Of a stretch of DNA of 64,000 nt, positions 31,476 to 40,004 are shown in pieces. Under the pieces are notes generated by a model. The model did no database searches. It had not been told where the DNA came from and saw nothing but the letters and a program-made list of their open reading frames with translations. Position 1 is the stretch's first letter. Each line of letters opens with the position of its first letter. The position numbers were made by a program, and so were the translations under genes. This DNA is from Olivibacter sp. SDN3 (lineage in GTDB: Bacteria > Bacteroidota > Bacteroidia > Sphingobacteriales > Sphingobacteriaceae): NCBI RefSeq assembly GCF_014334135.1, contig NZ_CP060497.1, positions 3,534,001 to 3,598,000 of the forward strand. Direction: 5' to 3'.

Positions 31476-32402
31476 CTATATGGGTGCTTCAACGGAGCTA
31501 GAAACAATTGCCCATCCATTGGCTACAGCTCGTGGTTCGCCGTCAGAGGGGCGGTTTCTTACCTCATACACCGTATCCATGGGATTATTGATGAGAAAAG
31601 TGGATGAGCCGCCTCCATCCAGGTTGATGGATTCCGTTGCGCCAAGAGCATGCATCAGCTCGCCAAGGTCTGTGAAGTTAATGCCATACGAGTAATCGTA
31701 CTTCCTACCATCCACCACCACAAAATAGAGCATGTTATCGGTCGTAAATCCCACTGCTGTACGGGGTTCAACTGAGGCGTCTGTATGGGTCACGGGCTCA
31801 CCATCCTTCACCAAGATCTGGTGCCCACCAAGGGCGTGGAAGATGTCCGCTTCTTTCTCCTCGAAATAGACATCATCTCCTATCATCAGTTGGCCCGATT
31901 TGCTCACGCCAAAAAATGTCCAACCACTCGGCATGGTGGTACGAATCGGCCTGCCGGATAAGTATACAATGCCCCGCGGCTCGCCGGTATCTGCATCGAA
32001 AAAGTCGGCATTAGCACCAAATAGCAAGCTGGAATCGCGGTCAACGTATGCTACCATCTCTGGGATCGGTTGCCGCCCATATAGTTCTGCTCCATTAGGC
32101 GTCAGCGGTTGAAGTTTTAAATCGGATCGGTTCATGTCGGCCTCCAATATAAAAATGCGCATCGTATGGCCATTCTGGTTCAGGTAGTGGATGTCTGTCT
32201 CGGTCACGCCGGGATGCAGCTCTAGGGTGGTATCACTGTATACGCGATGGATCAACGTGCTGTTTTCCTGTAGGCGAAGGGTCAGTTCGCTTCGCGTGTC
32301 ATCAAGAATCTTAATTTCCCCGGCATCATATGCTTTTTCGCAGCTGGCGACAAGAGTTAGGGAAAGGACGAACCAAAGGAGCTTCTGCTTTATCATTTTC
32401 AT
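31476..32402 (-). CDS. phosphodiester glycosidase (NAGPA-type) lipoprotein, last gene of the SusCD locus
   Basis: 308 residues. The N-terminus is a lipoprotein signal (LTLVASCEKAYD), so it is lipid-anchored. The catalytic domain of the NAGPA/DUF2233 type starts around residue 75 (MRIFILEADMNR) and contains ANADFFD, PRTAVGFT, YFVVVDGRKY, and the signature LMHALGATESINLDGGGSSTF. Such enzymes split the phosphodiester bond linking a sugar-1-phosphate to another molecule. It lies 18 bases after the SusD gene and is a paralogue of the enzyme at 38513. The two brackets of the locus suggest a phosphodiester-linked glycan as substrate (inference). Confidence 0.85.
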   Translation of the reverse strand: MKMIKQKLLWFVLSLTLVASCEKAYDAGEIKILDDTRSELTLRLQENSTLIHRVYSDTTLELHPGVTETDIHYLNQNGHTMRIFILEADMNRSDLKLQPLTPNGAELYGRQPIPEMVAYVDRDSSLLFGANADFFDADTGEPRGIVYLSGRPIRTTMPSGWTFFGVSKSGQLMIGDDVYFEEKEADIFHALGGHQILVKDGEPVTHTDASVEPRTAVGFTTDNMLYFVVVDGRKYDYSYGINFTDLGELMHALGATESINLDGGGSSTFLINNPMDTVYEVRNRPSDGEPRAVANGWAIVSSSVEAPI

Positions 32403-32420: not shown

Positions 32421-33713
32421 TTAATAGCCTTCATTTTGTGTGAGATTTGGGTTCACTTCTCGCTCGTAGTCTGGTATGGGAAACTTTGTCCGATAATCCT
32501 CAATACCTAGTTCTTCGACGGCCTTGCCTGTTCGTACCAAGTCAAACCAACGAAAGCCTTCGGCCAACAGCTCACGACGCCGTTCCAGTGCTACGGCCTC
32601 TTGGTATTCCGATTCATTTGATGGGTTAATTGCCGGTAGGTTCCTGGCCGCCCTTAGCTCGTTCAGTAGTGGAAGTCCGGCCAGGCCTTTCGCTTCGGCG
32701 GCTATCAAATACATTTCCGCTAGACGGATAATCGGAATCGGATCTGTTCCCGTTTGCCCGCTGGGATATTTGTTGATCACATTGAGCGAACTTACGGTAG
32801 CGATGCTCATGTCCCTCCGGTTGTCTTCCTCTTCAAACAGGTTCATCACCGCCTCCGTCGGTTTATAAACGTACGAACCGCTCACGTCATGCGCATAGGT
32901 GTAGAACAGCGTACTTAGCGTGATATTGGATTCTTCGGTTAAGTTTTTAAAAGAAAAAATCTCTTCGTTGTTATCTTGATGCCTGAATATTTTGTCAAAC
33001 CGATCCAATGAAAAGGTTTGCGTGCCGATAAGCTCCTCGGCAATTTGAGCAGCTTCGGCCATCTTGTTTTGTCCGATCAGCACACGGGCCAACAAGGCTT
33101 TGGCAGCCTGTTGCGACACGTAATAATAGTCGTCTTCAAATACTGGTGTTTTCTCCATAGCAATGGCAATATCTGTTTCAATTTGGCTCCAGACTGCGCT
33201 GGAAAGGTCGCGGGATACACGTTCGGTAGTATTTTCCAGAATCAGGGGAACATCCCCCCAACGGGTCACCAAGTTGTAGTATACGTAAGCCCGAAAGAAG
33301 TGGGCCGTACCCTCAATGCGCACACGCTTGTCGGACTCCGGCAGGGTAGCCATAATCTCTAATACGTTGTTTACCTGGTATAACGATCTATATAGGCCGC
33401 TCCAGTTATTGTTGACCAGGTTATAGTCGGTACGCATAATATTGCGGATGAAAGGCAGTTCACTTCCTCCCGATCCACCGATGAGATTACCTCCAACCAG
33501 ATCGAACATGATATAAGATTCTCGTCCTTGATTGTTTTGCACGGCATTGTACATGCCATTCAACAGTGCGTCCATGTCGCGTTCGCTCACGGTTTCCGGT
33601 GCCACCGACGTATGCGGATAGAAGTCGAGTTTTGTACAAGAAGATACAAATACCAGCACAAGGGCCGCCATAATGTTGCTGATTGCTGTTGTATTATACA
33701 TGATTAAATTCAT
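32421..33713 (-). CDS. SusD/RagB-family surface glycan-binding lipoprotein
   Basis: 430 residues. Lipoprotein signal about 1-26 (VFVSSCTKLDFYP). The alpha-helical SusD fold has its TPR-like part in DMDALLNGMYNAVQNNQGRE, YRSLYQVNNVLE and FFRAYVYYNLVTRWGDVPL, and the C-terminal SusD domain includes IRLAEMYLIAAEA and ERRRELLAEGFRWFDLVRTG. It captures the substrate at the cell surface and acts as a lid on the SusC channel encoded 10 bases upstream. At 430 residues it is somewhat shorter than the usual 500-600. Confidence 0.95.
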   Translation of the reverse strand: MNLIMYNTTAISNIMAALVLVFVSSCTKLDFYPHTSVAPETVSERDMDALLNGMYNAVQNNQGRESYIMFDLVGGNLIGGSGGSELPFIRNIMRTDYNLVNNNWSGLYRSLYQVNNVLEIMATLPESDKRVRIEGTAHFFRAYVYYNLVTRWGDVPLILENTTERVSRDLSSAVWSQIETDIAIAMEKTPVFEDDYYYVSQQAAKALLARVLIGQNKMAEAAQIAEELIGTQTFSLDRFDKIFRHQDNNEEIFSFKNLTEESNITLSTLFYTYAHDVSGSYVYKPTEAVMNLFEEEDNRRDMSIATVSSLNVINKYPSGQTGTDPIPIIRLAEMYLIAAEAKGLAGLPLLNELRAARNLPAINPSNESEYQEAVALERRRELLAEGFRWFDLVRTGKAVEELGIEDYRTKFPIPDYEREVNPNLTQNEGY

Positions 33714-33722
33714 TAGCCTCTA

Positions 33723-36700
33723 TTAAATTCCAATATTAACTCCTACGTTGAAACTCCTCAGTTGAGGTAAGATCAAGTTGTCTTGTCCGATAAATTGTGG
33801 GTCGAAATCACTGGTTACTTCCGGATCGAAACCCCGGTACCTCGTCCATAGATAAAGGTTATCGCCCTGCACGTACACCCGCAACCGTTGCATGCCGATT
33901 TTATTGGCGATCCTTGCGGGCAAGGTGTAACCCAGATTCAGCGCCCGTAGTCTGATGTAAGAACCATCCTCGAGGAAACGTGAAGAATTTTGGGTGTTCC
34001 AAGTATTGCCATAAATGGCCCTAGGTGTGGTGTTGCTTGTGCCGGGGCCGGTCCAACGCTCGTTAGCCACCTGCTCGGTCATGTTCATAAAGCCGTTGCC
34101 CAAGCGATCCGTAGTGGTGCGATAGTTCGCGTATACCATGTTACCATACGAGTAGGTGAAAAAAATGTTGAAGTCAAAGTTTTTGTAGGAAAAATTATTG
34201 TTCCAGCCTCCAAAAAAGTCTGGGTTGGCTGTACCTACAATTTGCCGGTCGGATACATTGATGGCTCCATTACCGTCTAGGTCTTCATAAATTACATCGC
34301 CGGCCCGTATGCCATTATTATAGAGCGATTCGGTTATTTCTTCATCCGATTGGTAAATACCCGTTTGTTTGTACATGTAAAAACTGCCCACTTCCTGCCC
34401 TACTTGTAAGGTCATATTCGCTCCGATCAATAAAGCTTCCTCCCCGATTAAGGAGGTCAGCTTGTTCTTAATGAAGGAAATGTTAAAGTCAGACGACCAC
34501 TGCACGGGGCCTAGCGGAACATGGGTATTCAGCAAAAATTCCCAGCCTTTGTTTTCCATCGAGCCGATGTTGCTGATGATCGAGGTAAATCCTGTAGTGG
34601 CCGGTTCAGGTTTGCTATACAACAGGTTATCCGTTTTCTTGATAAAATAATCTGCAGTTAGATTCAATTTGCCGTCCAAAAATTCGAGGTCTAAGCCCGC
34701 GCCATATTGCCTGGCCGTTTCCCAGGTCAGATCTCGGTTGCCATTGGTGCTTACGCCGATCCCACTTTGGTTATTGTAGTTGCGCCCACCGCTCATTTGG
34801 GCATGGTAGGCGTAGCTGCTAATTCCATCTTGGTTACCTGTTTCGCCATAACTGCCCCGGATCTTAGCCGAAGTACCGGCTAGCGTCCAAAACGACTCGT
34901 TGGAAATATTCCAACCTGCAGATATCGAAGGGAAGTAACCCCAACGCTTATCGGGATGAAACTTGGATGAACCGTCGGCACGTAACGATAGGCTCAGCAA
35001 GTATTTATTATCCCATGAAAGATTTGAACGACCGAATATCGACATCAAGGCACTTTCGCTTAGGCTGGTACCCGCCGAGAGGATGGATGCTGCTACCGAA
35101 AGTTGTTGAAAAGAGGGAGACGGAAACCCACTTCCTTCAATATCGGAACTTGAGAGGGAGATCTTCTGATAAGAATAGCCCAGTAGGCCTTCCACCGTCA
35201 GTTTATCGAACACCTTGTTGTAATTCAGCGTATTCTCCCATAAAATATTTGGGGTGAAACGTCGATTGTCATACTTCATGCCGATCCCCGTACCGTAGGG
35301 GTGGTTTTCTGCATAGTATATGTTGTCCAATGTATACGTCAGGTCGGTGCCCAACATCGTTTTGAAGGCGAGGCCATCCATAATGGTGGCGGTACCGAAG
35401 AAAGATCCCAAAAACCGGTAATTGTCTAGGGACACGTTTTGTTCATTGATAATCTGGAACGGGTTATGGTAGATCAATTCGTCCGTTCCGCCCAGGTAAT
35501 AATCACCATTTGGCTTATAGGGGCGATCAAAGGGGCGTTGGAGCAAGGAGCGGCCCATCATTGTTGTTCCGAGGTTCGAACCCGGCACTCGTTGATTCTT
35601 GGAAAAACTGTAGTTAGTATTTGCACCGAATTCGAGCCATTTATATAGCTTGTGCGACAAGTTCAGTTTACCGGTATACCGTGTAAACTTTTGGTTTATG
35701 AACGCCCCTTCCTGATTTAGGTAGTTGCCAGACAAGTATACGTTTGTTTTTTCCGTACCTCCCGTAAAGGATAGTGACACACTGGATGTATTGGCCGGAC
35801 GCGTAATCAGGTCAAACCAATCGGTGCCAGGTTCGCCGGGGAAAGGATTTGCTCTGTGTTCCATATAATTGGTTGCGCCCGGTGTATAGCCGTACTGGTT
35901 ATTAAAATTGTCAATCGCCTCATTGATCACGTTGAGGTAAAGGTCGGGGTTGGCCATCTTCATTTTGCCCCTGTTGGGCACTACAGATACACCGGTAAAG
36001 GCATCGACACCAAACTTTGTTTGGCTTGAACTTCCCGACTTAGTCGTGATCAGGATAACGCCGTTTGTGGCGCGACTTCCATAAATTGCTGCAGAAGCTG
36101 CATCCTTCAATACTTCAACGGACTCGATGTCGCTTGGATTCAACAGCGCTAAGGGGTTCATGTTTTCTCCAAAATTCAGAAGGGCGGCGTTCTGGTTTAC
36201 CACGGGCACCCCATCAATTACATATAATGGCTCATTGGCGGCACTTAACGAACCGATACCACGTATGGACACCCGGTTCGCGGTTCCCGGGCTACCCGAA
36301 CCTGCACTCACTTGCACCCCGGGCATCCGACCTTGGATAAGCTGGTCGGGGCCTAACACCGCGCGTGCGTTTTCCTCTGTTGGCTTGAAGGAAGATACGG
36401 CTGCGGTTAAGTCGCTCTTCTTTTGCTGACCATAACCGATGACCACCACTTCCTCCAAGTCTGAAAAGTCAATTTTCAATACCACGTCCAGCTGGATTTG
36501 CCCGGCAATGCTTAGCTCCCGTCGCTGATAGCCGATTAAGCTGAATACCAGTACATCGCCTTTTGCCGCGGGTATCTGGAATTGTCCCTCGGCATCAGTT
36601 GTAGTCCCACGTGAAGTGCCTTTCACGATGACAGATACGCCTGACATGGGGGTGCCCGTTGAATCTGTTACGTGACCGGTAATGGGTGCCTGTTGCGGAG

Positions 36701-37103
36701 CCCTTGTCTTCGCTACGTTGAGTTTGCTGTCATCCTGCTTGAAGAGAATATTGCGCTCAACTATTTTATAGGAGATGGGCAAATCTCTCAGGCATGCCTC
36801 CAATACCTCTTCTATGGAGGCATGCTGTACTGCCAAGCTAACCTTCTGTGTAGTAAAACTTGGGTCATCGTAAAGAAATACATAATCGGTCTGACCCTCA
36901 ACAAGTTTGAACACCCGGTCTAAGGACATGTCTTTTACGTTCAATGATACGTTCTGTGCATAGGTCGATGCGCTGACTTGGATAAAAACCGAAAGCAATA
37001 AACCGACAATAAATTGAAATCTCATGATAAATTTCAGTTGAGTAAATTCCTGTGGGGGAGGCCATTTCAAAGACACGGCCGTTGCATGAAATGCTAATTT
37101 CAT
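33723..37103 (-). CDS. SusC/RagA-family TonB-dependent transporter with STN domain
   Basis: 1126 residues from 37103, or 1100 from the ATG at 37025 (MRFQFIVGLLLSVFIQVSAS), which starts a proper signal peptide. I prefer 37025 because a plus-strand -7 element ends immediately beside 37103, though N-terminal extensions are common in the family. After the signal come an STN domain (DYVFLYDDPSF, for signalling to FecR), a CarboxypepD_reg-like domain (GHVTDSTGTPMSGVSV), the SusC motif LEEVVVIGYGQQKKSDLTAAVSS (split by me: V-V-V-I-G-Y-G-Q-Q), the plug with NRVSIRGIGSL and YVIDGVPV, and a 22-strand barrel. It imports the glycan with TonB. The STN domain plus FecR upstream shows trans-envelope signalling. 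Confidence 0.95.
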   Translation of the reverse strand: MKLAFHATAVSLKWPPPQEFTQLKFIMRFQFIVGLLLSVFIQVSASTYAQNVSLNVKDMSLDRVFKLVEGQTDYVFLYDDPSFTTQKVSLAVQHASIEEVLEACLRDLPISYKIVERNILFKQDDSKLNVAKTRAPQQAPITGHVTDSTGTPMSGVSVIVKGTSRGTTTDAEGQFQIPAAKGDVLVFSLIGYQRRELSIAGQIQLDVVLKIDFSDLEEVVVIGYGQQKKSDLTAAVSSFKPTEENARAVLGPDQLIQGRMPGVQVSAGSGSPGTANRVSIRGIGSLSAANEPLYVIDGVPVVNQNAALLNFGENMNPLALLNPSDIESVEVLKDAASAAIYGSRATNGVILITTKSGSSSQTKFGVDAFTGVSVVPNRGKMKMANPDLYLNVINEAIDNFNNQYGYTPGATNYMEHRANPFPGEPGTDWFDLITRPANTSSVSLSFTGGTEKTNVYLSGNYLNQEGAFINQKFTRYTGKLNLSHKLYKWLEFGANTNYSFSKNQRVPGSNLGTTMMGRSLLQRPFDRPYKPNGDYYLGGTDELIYHNPFQIINEQNVSLDNYRFLGSFFGTATIMDGLAFKTMLGTDLTYTLDNIYYAENHPYGTGIGMKYDNRRFTPNILWENTLNYNKVFDKLTVEGLLGYSYQKISLSSSDIEGSGFPSPSFQQLSVAASILSAGTSLSESALMSIFGRSNLSWDNKYLLSLSLRADGSSKFHPDKRWGYFPSISAGWNISNESFWTLAGTSAKIRGSYGETGNQDGISSYAYHAQMSGGRNYNNQSGIGVSTNGNRDLTWETARQYGAGLDLEFLDGKLNLTADYFIKKTDNLLYSKPEPATTGFTSIISNIGSMENKGWEFLLNTHVPLGPVQWSSDFNISFIKNKLTSLIGEEALLIGANMTLQVGQEVGSFYMYKQTGIYQSDEEITESLYNNGIRAGDVIYEDLDGNGAINVSDRQIVGTANPDFFGGWNNNFSYKNFDFNIFFTYSYGNMVYANYRTTTDRLGNGFMNMTEQVANERWTGPGTSNTTPRAIYGNTWNTQNSSRFLEDGSYIRLRALNLGYTLPARIANKIGMQRLRVYVQGDNLYLWTRYRGFDPEVTSDFDPQFIGQDNLILPQLRSFNVGVNIGI

Positions 37104-37111
37104 TACCTTTG
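37082..37111 (+). promoter_or_regulatory. plus-strand promoter antisense to the susC start
   Basis: TTG at 37082-37084 is a -33 element and TACCTTTG at 37104-37111 an exact TAnnTTTG -7 element, spaced 19 bases as in the blaI-type promoter of this window. It points away from susC into the fecR-susC gap, antisense to the operon. No protein-coding gene follows in that direction. Confidence 0.55.
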
Positions 37112-37116
37112 TAATG

Positions 37117-37206
37117 TTTGAGTGATTAATTTAAATCTGTTAACTGTTTTTTGAATCATTGGCTCAAACTCCTTCGTCTTCTGACTGCAATCAGAAGGCG
37201 TTTTTT
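37117..37206 (+). ncRNA. candidate cis-antisense small RNA against the susC leader
   Basis: A transcript starting about six bases after the antisense -7 element would run for about 90 nt and meet a rho-independent terminator: CGTCTTCTGA (37175-37184) pairs with TCAGAAGGCG (37191-37200), ten pairs including one G-U, a 6-base loop, then TTTTTT at 37201-37206. The whole unit lies in the 177-base gap between fecR and susC. The same hairpin has no T-tract when read in the susC direction. Known precedent: Bacteroides PULs of the ECF-sigma type have cis-encoded antisense RNAs (DonS) at exactly this place that repress susC. That this one is expressed is inference. Confidence 0.55.
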
Positions 37207-37280
37207 ATTAAGCCTTTTACTAATGTTTATTTACTTTTTCATATGGTTGATTTTAAGGTTAAATAATTGTTTTATTATGT

Positions 37281-38429
37281 TTATTGAATAACTATCCGCT
37301 TAATGCCATCGTTCATCTCTATTTTACAATCCAGGTCATAAAAAGATAAAATCTCCAGAACTTTGGAAGCGTTGGTATTCCGGTAAACTTCGCCCGATAA
37401 CATGATATTCGGCTTTTCCCCTTGGAAGATCACCTCCACACCGTACCAACGGGATAGCTGTCGCATAACCGTTCCGATATCCGAATGCTTGAAACTGAAT
37501 TTGCCATTTTTCCAAGCCATGGCGTCTGAAATGTCTGCCTGCTTTACAGACAGACGACTATGCTCGTCAAGCGCCGCCTGTTGTCCCGGTTGGAGTATTA
37601 CCGCCTGTTGGTTGGCGGTTCCTGCCACTTTAACTGATCCTTCTACCAAGGTGGTTTTCACTGCCGGTTCATCGGCGTAGCTATTGATGTTGAAATGGGT
37701 GCCCAGCACCTCCACAATTTGTCCTTTGGATTCCACTCGAAACGGCCGCTGTGGATCTTTAGTCACCTCGAAATAGGCTTCCCCTTCCAGTTTCACCAGT
37801 CGTTCCTTTGCCGATCCATTGATGGCGTAGGTTAGCGTGGACGCGGCGTTCATCCAGACTTTCGTGCCATCGGGTAAAACTAAATGGTATTGTCCGCCGC
37901 GTGGCGTATGCATGGTATTGAATACGGGTGTCCCAGTACTATTTCCTGCTGCATCCGTAATCTGGTAGACCAATTCGCCATTCGTATTTTTGTAGATGGC
38001 ATGTGAACCGTCTTGGGCAACTTCGCCATCCGGGGTGCCGTCTAGCGTTATTTCTCTGCCGTTTGCCAGCTTTAGGGTGGCTTTGGTCTCACCGGGAGCA
38101 ATATCCTGTTGATCGGAAATTGCCAGGTTATCAGTTGCTGTAGTCAACCCGTCGGTTCGGGTAAATTGAAAATACGCGCCTACAGCCATAATAATTACAG
38201 CTGCAACGGCGGCCGCATAACGGTACCATGTAGTTATTTGGCGTCTAGGCGGGGTGGGCAGGCGCTTCCGTATTTCAGCAACGTCATCTTCCATCTGTTC
38301 TTCAGAAGGCTCCCCCACATGGATGTCCAGTTTCTCGTACCATCGCTCAACCCGGATGCGCTCCTCGGATGTGCATTCGCCAGCGGCGTACCGTTTCAAT
38401 AGCTTTTTGATTTCTTCGTGCTCCTCCAT
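37281..38429 (-). CDS. FecR-type anti-sigma factor
   Basis: 382 residues. Cytoplasmic N-terminal part (about 1-65, EEHEEIKKLLKRYAAGECT) that would hold the sigma factor, a transmembrane helix at about 69-88 (YAAAVAAVIIMAVGAYF), the FecR domain around 175-275 (PRGGQYHLVLPDGTKVWMN, then VKLEGEAYFEVT), and a C-terminal DUF4974 domain (LSGEVYRNTNASKVLEIL). The DUF4974 part contacts the STN domain of SusC in this system. It transmits transport-substrate binding to the sigma factor encoded upstream. Unusually, an enzyme gene separates it from the sigma gene. Confidence 0.93.
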   Translation of the reverse strand: MEEHEEIKKLLKRYAAGECTSEERIRVERWYEKLDIHVGEPSEEQMEDDVAEIRKRLPTPPRRQITTWYRYAAAVAAVIIMAVGAYFQFTRTDGLTTATDNLAISDQQDIAPGETKATLKLANGREITLDGTPDGEVAQDGSHAIYKNTNGELVYQITDAAGNSTGTPVFNTMHTPRGGQYHLVLPDGTKVWMNAASTLTYAINGSAKERLVKLEGEAYFEVTKDPQRPFRVESKGQIVEVLGTHFNINSYADEPAVKTTLVEGSVKVAGTANQQAVILQPGQQAALDEHSRLSVKQADISDAMAWKNGKFSFKHSDIGTVMRQLSRWYGVEVIFQGEKPNIMLSGEVYRNTNASKVLEILSFYDLDCKIEMNDGIKRIVIQ

Positions 38430-38512: not shown

Positions 38513-39355
38513 TTATTCCTTAAGATAAATGATATTGGCTACTGGACGAAGTCCCTCATGATCAAACTGCTTGTTGTCTGATGGATGGTTGATAACACTG
38601 TTTTCCGTCGCACCTTTAATGTAGAGTGTGCTGCTTCCACCACCATCTACATTCATGGCGTCCTTTGCGCCCAGCCAACGCAGCATTTTTGCCAACTCGG
38701 TCAAGCGCATACCTGCCGCCAAACTGTTCCTCCCGTCTACTACGATAAAAATTAATTTCTTATCCGTTGTAATTGCCACGGCACTGCGCGGGTGACGGTT
38801 GTTATTAAAGGGGTTGTTGGAAAGTGCCGCATCCTCCCCTTGATGTATCAGCAGTGGACCTGATAGGAGAATGTTTGGCACTCTACTCCGCTCATAATCA
38901 ATTGCCGAAGCCGGTTGGATCTCGATTATTTTTTTAGCAATCAATAGGATCGCATCGGCACGATCGGTTTTCTTTTTGGTGGTATTGACGACGTTATTAT
39001 CCGCTTTTACGTAATCCCACGAACCACCTTTCTTCATGTCAAAGAAACCACCATTGATAGCCACTAGGGCGTTGTTTTCCAATGCAAATTGAGTGGTTTT
39101 TTTCAATGTTGCCGAATCTGCTGCAATACAGATTTTCTTGCGGTACTTTCTGAGGTCGATTTCCACCAAGTTGATTTCCTGTTGGCTTTCAAAAAGTTTA
39201 TCAAAATGACCTTGCTTCCATGTAATGCCCTTTTTTATAGGGGTAATTTTCCAGTCTTTATTAACCACGGCAACGGAATCTGGCAATTGTCCAAAAGCCA
39301 TCGGTAGGATAAAGTATAAGAAGCCGAATAGGGTAGGCACTATTTTTTTGTTCAT
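38513..39355 (-). CDS. secreted phosphodiester glycosidase (NAGPA-type)
   Basis: 280 residues. Signal peptide about 1-22 (ending MAFGQ). The NAGPA/DUF2233 domain covers nearly all the mature protein: WKQGHFDKLFESQ, VAINGGFFDMKKGGSWDYV, HPRSAVAITTDKKLIFIVVDG and the active-site-like MLRWLGAKDAMNVDGGGSST. Unlike its paralogue at 31476 it is not a lipoprotein but a soluble periplasmic or exported enzyme. It lies between the sigma factor and FecR genes on the same strand (64 and 83 bases), a position where enzymes are rare in such loci, so it should be expressed at the basal level of the regulators. Confidence 0.85.
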   Translation of the reverse strand: MNKKIVPTLFGFLYFILPMAFGQLPDSVAVVNKDWKITPIKKGITWKQGHFDKLFESQQEINLVEIDLRKYRKKICIAADSATLKKTTQFALENNALVAINGGFFDMKKGGSWDYVKADNNVVNTTKKKTDRADAILLIAKKIIEIQPASAIDYERSRVPNILLSGPLLIHQGEDAALSNNPFNNNRHPRSAVAITTDKKLIFIVVDGRNSLAAGMRLTELAKMLRWLGAKDAMNVDGGGSSTLYIKGATENSVINHPSDNKQFDHEGLRPVANIIYLKE

Positions 39356-39419: not shown

Positions 39420-40004
39420 TCAGCGAAGGAGAAAATAGGCCAGAGAGATCAAGGTGCCGAATTTCGGACGTAGTATCTTTAGCGCATTGTTCACATGCTT
39501 CTTAACGGTTGTTTCGGAAAGCCCAAGTTCATCGGCAATTTCCTTGTGGGAGAGGTGGGATTGCCGGCTCATCCGGAAGACCTCCTGCATTTTTTCGGGT
39601 AGCCGCACGATCTCGCTTTCGATCAACTGCCCCAATTCTTTCTCGCGAATCAGGTAATCCGCAGTTGTGTTGTCTTGGGTGTTGATCGTCGCCAAGGATT
39701 CGAAATAAACCGCTTCGACCTTTTTATGCGCAATCAGTTTGATGATCTTGTACCGTAAAGTTGCATAGAGATAGCCGGCCAGTGGGCTTTCGGGATTCAA
39801 TGCACTGCGATTTTGCCAGAGGGCAGCGAAAACTTCCTGTAATAGATCTTTGACCTCATCCCGGTCGTTCAGCTTTTTGCATGCATGTGCATATAGTTGT
39901 CGCGAGTAACGCTCATAAATCTCCATATAAGCGCTGTAATCGTCACTCAAAATGAGCCGTATCAATTCGCTATCATCATATGATTCATAAGACATCTTCG
40001 CCAT
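39420..40004 (-). CDS. FecI-like ECF sigma factor
   Basis: 194 residues. Region 2 includes DYSAYMEIYERYSRQLYAHA and VKDLLQEVFAALWQNR, and region 4 the HTH SHLSHKEIADELGLSETTVKKHVNNAL. Size and sequence match the Bacteroidota sigma-70 family that is paired with FecR and SusC. When released by FecR it would direct transcription of the susC-susD operon downstream. The start could also be the second ATG (MSYESYDD, four codons in). First gene of the minus-strand locus. Confidence 0.93.
   Translation of the reverse strand: MAKMSYESYDDSELIRLILSDDYSAYMEIYERYSRQLYAHACKKLNDRDEVKDLLQEVFAALWQNRSALNPESPLAGYLYATLRYKIIKLIAHKKVEAVYFESLATINTQDNTTADYLIREKELGQLIESEIVRLPEKMQEVFRMSRQSHLSHKEIADELGLSETTVKKHVNNALKILRPKFGTLISLAYFLLR

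Follow-up and report, generated by a model that had tools for sequence, protein, structure and literature searches.

The gap between fecR and susC in this stretch of the Olivibacter sp. SDN3 genome probably encodes, on its plus strand, a cis-antisense RNA of the DonS type. The RNA is predicted from sequence to be about 92 nt long and, by analogy with Bacteroides, most likely lowers susCD output. The window (the whole stretch of DNA analysed, 64,000 nucleotides of contig NZ_CP060497.1) comes from a 6.12 Mb genome of the family Sphingobacteriaceae. The comparisons below establish a conserved, folded and strand-specific putative promoter-to-terminator unit tied to FecR-coupled susC genes. We infer that this unit is transcribed and, by analogy, that its product would pair with the susC leader and thereby lower susCD output. 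Such a unit had been proposed in an earlier note, and the proposal is supported by conservation in orthologues, recurrence with zero occurrences in three controls, covariation, and a strand-specific excess of G·U pairs.

A promoter-to-terminator unit opposite the susC leader

A scan of the window proteins places the gap in a locus whose genes all lie on the minus strand: an ECF-type sigma factor (39420-40004), a phosphodiester glycosidase (NAGPA, 38513-39355) between the sigma factor and fecR, the anti-sigma factor gene fecR (37281-38429), a long form of susC (33723-37103, with its start codon at 37101-37103 and an inner in-frame ATG at 37023-37025), susD (32421-33713), and a second phosphodiester glycosidase (NAGPA, 31476-32402). 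The plus strand of the fecR-susC gap was said to be free of genes, and the window's list of open reading frames indeed has none of at least 100 aa there. The same promoter geometry was also said to precede a BlaI-type gene in the window; this claim is not confirmed, none of the 13 window proteins scanned being of the BlaI family.

The claimed antisense promoter is found at 37082-37111 on the plus strand. It consists of a -33 element TTG (37082-37084), a spacer of 19 nt, and the -7 box TACCTTTG (37104-37111), which adjoins the susC start codon; both elements are kept in orthologues. By itself this promoter motif is not above chance (four TTG-N19-TANNTTTG sites in the window vs 1.8 +/- 1.8 in 30 shuffles), and sigma-70 promoter scans are unsuited to this phylum. 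The promoter-to-terminator unit as a whole is above chance because it is conserved and recurrent, not because of the promoter motif. We considered TTG at the -33 distance as a family-wide feature and dropped it, as TTG stands 18-20 nt before the -7 box in just 11 of 45 units; across the family of antisense RNAs, the constant promoter part is the -7 box only. The antisense promoter spacer also holds an inverted repeat, ATGAAAT-TAGC-ATTTCAT, which reads from the susC start codon on the susC strand (37086-37103).

With the centre of the -7 box taken as -7, the predicted RNA starts at about 37115 and ends at 37206 on the plus strand, giving about 92 nt between ends that are both predicted from sequence. 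The start lies about 60 nt before the terminator stem; the earlier note had the same layout with a distance of about 65 bases. The predicted intrinsic terminator (37175-37206, plus strand) is a stem-loop at 37175-37200 followed by T6 (37201-37206), with stem arms at 37175-37184 and 37191-37200 and the loop CTGCAA. It had been described as a perfect 10-bp stem with a T6 tract: the ten pairs and the T6 are there, but one pair is U·G, and the stem is hence not strictly Watson-Crick. A terminator scan of 501 bases found one terminator, against a mean of 0.5 (sd 0.9). Between start and terminator, a predicted 5' domain (37118-37167, plus strand) is closed by a stem of 37118-37123 with 37162-37167. 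The segment 37118-37209 folds at -22.4 kcal/mol (z = -3.8), which none of 200 shuffles equals. Over the 45 units, the predicted RNAs measure 75-123 nt (two units fall below 78) and have a mean folding z of -4.2. Rfam 15 has no match in the window at gathering score; at a permissive threshold, six matches appear in 36950-37350, all far below their own gathering scores.

Conservation and folding

Within the genus, a DNA search matched the gap in three of five genomes, one of them the window's own. The two other genomes with a matching gap hold a susC orthologue (88 and 87% identical), while the best susC match in the remaining two stands at 39%. Another orthologue, at 83%, is found in Parapedobacter indicus. 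We compared these three loci (Parapedobacter / O. jilunii / O. domesticus) with the window as the reference. Identity is high in the promoter (90/93/97%) and the terminator (91/91/94%). It falls to 63/65/72% in the RNA's 5' part and to 51/54/68% in the remaining gap, with 64-84% in the coding stretches of susC and fecR. The sequence of the 5' part is thus not more conserved than its surroundings, which range from 51 to 84%. Loss of the promoter or hairpin in a relative that retains susC had been named as the observation that would speak against the RNA, and it was not seen: all three orthologues found keep both.

Since a MAFFT alignment of all unit types together misaligned the terminators, we limited the covariance model to nine sequences of one subtype. 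The model, built on the RNA alone, gave 40 matches in 28 of 301 family genomes. Thirty of these became loci, eight of them training sequences and 22 others; several of the matched loci are close copies of each other. Among the 22, the -7 box lies directly upstream in 17, and SusC is encoded on the opposite strand in 19, in 13 of these within 200 nt. For covariation we used an alignment of 27 sequences, including the nine training ones, which was fitted to the structure and is so biased towards it; it leaves out two opposite-strand matches, three loci with no SusC (L342, L343 and L345), and L327, which nearly duplicates L326. Pairing holds in 97.8% of the cells of this alignment, and two-sided changes appear in 11 of the 17 pairs. 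None of the covariation measures was reached by any of 500 shuffles, and structures slid along the alignment pair at most 45.3% of cells. The covariation is strong in the terminator stem (two-sided changes in 10/11 pairs) and slight in the 5' stem (1/6 pairs, with 96.9% of its cells paired).

These patterns bear on whether the RNA is the active part at all. Antisense transcription itself could act instead, either through colliding polymerases or because the antisense promoter stands in the way of mRNA initiation. Such a role would fit the contact between the -7 box and the susC start codon, and an RNA 5' part that is less conserved (63/65/72%) than the promoter and terminator. However, transcription alone would not need a folded 5' part. 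Without the terminator, this part folds better than its shuffles on the antisense strand (mean z -1.81, vs -0.63 for the sense strand; paired p = 4e-6), and the stem that closes it is preserved, with nearly all cells paired. We therefore regard a pure effect of transcription as unlikely, and favour an RNA that itself acts.

Recurrence at FecR-linked susC genes

Beyond the orthologues, a family-wide DNA search gave matches in 40 of 399 genomes, with the other loci hit in the promoter part. We read 13 loci, picked mostly because their match covered the promoter part: ten have the same layout with different stem sequences (the T tract of L046 is weak), and three (L039, L043 and L052) do not have it.

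To count such units, we defined a strict unit as an antisense TANNTTTG followed, after 40-140 nt, by a stem of at least seven pairs (four of them G-C) with at least five T in eight, the whole lying no more than 230 nt from the SusC signal peptide. In this genome, the strict unit occurs at 15 of 25 FecR-linked susC genes, among the 26 of 40 FecR_C matches that were listed and used (25 with SusC). It also occurs at 4/8 in two further Olivibacter genomes (hand-picked loci), 4/10 in other genera of the family, 11/19 in P. indicus (20 loci taken from the top of 98 matches, 19 with SusC), and 7/19 in Bacteroides (20 loci, at most three per genome and not in strict order; 19 with SusC). It is rarer in other families of the class (3/30) and other classes of the phylum (1/30). 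The phylum sample comprised 80 loci taken by E-value order, at most two per genome, 77 of them with SusC; the strict-unit count left out seven, and three were without SusC.

The controls are empty. On the sense strand, the strict unit occurs in none of the groups (0/25 in this genome), and it is equally absent from 500 shuffles of this genome's regions and from 24 of its susC genes not beside a listed fecR, some of which may adjoin an unlisted one and whose upstream end was set approximately. In this genome, the terminator alone is found at 17/25 FecR-linked susC genes on the antisense strand and 1/25 on the sense strand, where it also occurs at 3/30 in other families of the class and 1/30 in other classes. 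The ten FecR-linked susC genes here without a strict unit comprise two with the terminator only and eight with neither part; in Bacteroides, 12/19 have neither the -7 box nor the terminator.

Several loci (L087, L107, L115-L120, L129, L307 and L308) have no strict unit, yet carry a terminator on the antisense strand, so the true share is probably above the strict count. PF16344, the FecR C-terminal model, also matches within frames of more than 1000 aa beside fecR. These matches are probably the STN domain of SusC, and FecR counts by PF16344 are hence somewhat inflated. In P. indicus, four loci (L304, L305, L310 and L314) share CATAATTTATCATTACGTTTG before the RNA, and in two of them the -7 box is doubled; the shared sequence suggests that whole modules have spread.

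The recurrence could also be read as the work of an RNA that acts in trans on other susC mRNAs, or via an RNA-binding protein, its antisense position being secondary. A common 5' stem and similar terminators at many loci and in many genera would suit this, as would the FopS RNAs of Bacteroides, which act on susC start regions (PMC11697453, as far as its available text goes). Against this, the unit is found at FecR-linked susC genes and at 0/24 others, and 19 of the 22 non-training model matches have SusC on the opposite strand. Action mainly in trans thus seems very unlikely, and we keep to a cis-antisense RNA.

Interlock of the promoter with the susC start codon

In 42 of the 45 units, an in-frame, stop-free susC ATG shares bases with the antisense -7 box or directly adjoins it. 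Three fixed offsets occur: CAAATGTA in 13 units, CAAAnnTATG in 22, and CAAAnnTAATG, the register of the window's susC, in seven. Because of this interlock, the predicted RNA should begin some ten bases before the start codon of susC, on its upstream side, and cover the leader only; the unit was indeed claimed to run from the susC initiation region into the leader. For the same reason, it is at the antisense promoter that these SusC proteins have the beginning of their short pre-extension.

We also counted this arrangement across the groups, scoring it regardless of the terminator. The -7 box lies at the start codon of 17/25 FecR-linked susC genes in this genome (among the 26 of 40 FecR_C matches listed). 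The corresponding figures are 4/8 for the genus, 5/10 for the family, 14/19 for P. indicus (from the first 20 of its 98 matches), 6/19 for Bacteroides, 7/30 for the remainder of the class, and 2/37 for the remainder of the phylum. Could it be a chance promoter match in an A-rich start region, with a terminator that merely stops stray antisense transcription? The -7 box alone turns up in about a quarter of shuffled regions, and some loci have the terminator without the box. Against this, the box is at the start codon of none of the 24 other susC genes of this genome and of only one of the 62 window ORFs of at least 100 aa, namely this susC, while the promoter is 90-97% identical in orthologues. 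Chance is therefore a barely plausible account of the antisense unit.

The structured strand

To ask which strand is folded, we counted G·U and A·C positions, scored alike, in 48 loci that have a -7 box and a hairpin of at least eight Watson-Crick pairs. Read on the antisense strand, these stand at 46:4. This imbalance is the mark of selection acting on the antisense RNA, and the antisense strand is the structured one. A first count in the terminator (42 to 0) was discarded, as its units had been picked with G·U allowed. T tracts point the same way: the 8 nt that follow the stem hold 5.5 T, vs 2.1 A for the 8 nt that precede it.

The first codons of the extended susC mRNA (37028-37103 on the minus strand in the window; 44 of the 45 units) show a hairpin tendency of their own on the sense strand. 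The mean z is -1.79 for sense vs -1.24 for antisense (p = 0.003), the best stem has 6.45 pairs vs 5.11 in shuffles, and the sense reading gives 16 G·U and 8 A·C.

That the gap is instead a sense-strand leader element of the susC mRNA, with the antisense promoter and terminator as by-products, is the least credible reading: the sense strand of the gap folds too (z -2.7) and the hairpin tendency of the first codons would agree, but the G·U bias, the T tract after the stem, and the lack of sense-strand strict units in every group all argue against it.

Relation to known antisense RNAs

DonS-family RNAs, known here from the descriptions in other papers, are 78-128 nt long, are encoded divergently to susC homologues and reduce their expression (PMC7366714). 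Bacteroides fragilis has 15 PULs with such RNAs (PMC9723704). The RNA predicted here lies on the strand opposite a susC homologue, divergent from it and at its 5' end; its length of about 92 nt falls within the family's range, and TTG-N19-TACCTTTG is a promoter of the housekeeping -33/-7 type and conserved in orthologues. By location, length and shared anatomy, it very probably belongs to the DonS kind. The likeness to DonS had been asserted earlier and is apt, as 7/19 of the Bacteroides loci compared carry the unit at the same place; donS itself was not identified among them. The RNA differs in its setting, a phosphodiester glycosidase locus of an Olivibacter (Sphingobacteriaceae), and in being predicted from sequence.

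In B. thetaiotaomicron, first 10 and later 32 PUL antisense RNAs have been described (PMC7366714, PMC10994844), with candidates seen on northern blots (five and two in the same two papers). They share the DonS-like orientation, but their correlations with the PULs are negative and positive alike (PMC10994844), and the available text of the two papers says nothing of a -7 box placed at the start codon. The FopS and GibS RNAs of the same species offer another parallel: FopS acts at the start region of susC mRNA, and FopS-10 pairs beside the start codon and blocks susC translation (PMC11697453), which makes the start-codon region a workable target. However, the available descriptions have FopS and GibS as paralogous, mostly intergenic RNAs that pair partially in trans, whereas the present RNA lies opposite its presumed target.

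A literature search that covered such secondary accounts, and not the primary DonS paper, found neither a susC-tied antisense RNA outside Bacteroides nor a report of a -7 box interlocked with a start codon; the antisense RNAs in the available text of the F. psychrophilum transcriptome paper are not tied to susC (PMC9723704). The spread beyond Bacteroides, the link to FecR and the interlock thus appear to be unreported.

Proposed mechanism and meaning

We propose that the housekeeping sigma factor would start the RNA at about 37115, from the -7 box next to the start codon of susC. The RNA would run away from susC through the leader, form the closed 5' domain and stop at the intrinsic terminator. 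A susC mRNA reaching back through the leader would be complementary to it, and pairing would, as our first choice, block the ribosome or expose the mRNA to decay; colliding polymerases may add to the lowered susCD output. The RNA would then act as a brake, which the ECF sigma/FecR circuit has to outweigh. We looked for a susC sense promoter between fecR and the terminator with a gapped-word count, which gave at most 10/45 loci vs 7-9 in shuffles; the leading words seem to come from the codons of fecR. Some points speak against this explanation: the promoter motif alone is at chance level, the unit is rare outside the family and Bacteroides, the covariation lies almost wholly in the terminator, and some pairs of antisense RNA and PUL in B. 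thetaiotaomicron correlate positively (PMC10994844, available text).

A wider idea, which we offer tentatively and as somewhat short of likely, is that an ancient antisense brake is built into the FecR-coupled susC genes of much of Bacteroidia, with its promoter and the start codon interlocked. Antisense initiation and susC translation would then be tied to each other, the N-terminal pre-extension (MYKK...) would partly be a shadow of the promoter, and the antisense RNA would join the sigma factor, the anti-sigma factor and the receptor in a single conserved switch of four parts.

Experimental knowledge of PUL antisense RNAs comes from a few Bacteroides, and their mechanism is unsettled. The anatomy described here (a FecR-coupled susC, a -7 box on the start codon, an RNA of 75-123 nt and a terminator before fecR) would allow candidates to be predicted from sequence in environmental Bacteroidota, and provides dozens of natural variants for working out the mode of action. 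It also suggests that, in many SusC proteins, the annotated N-terminus mirrors a promoter as well as a protein.
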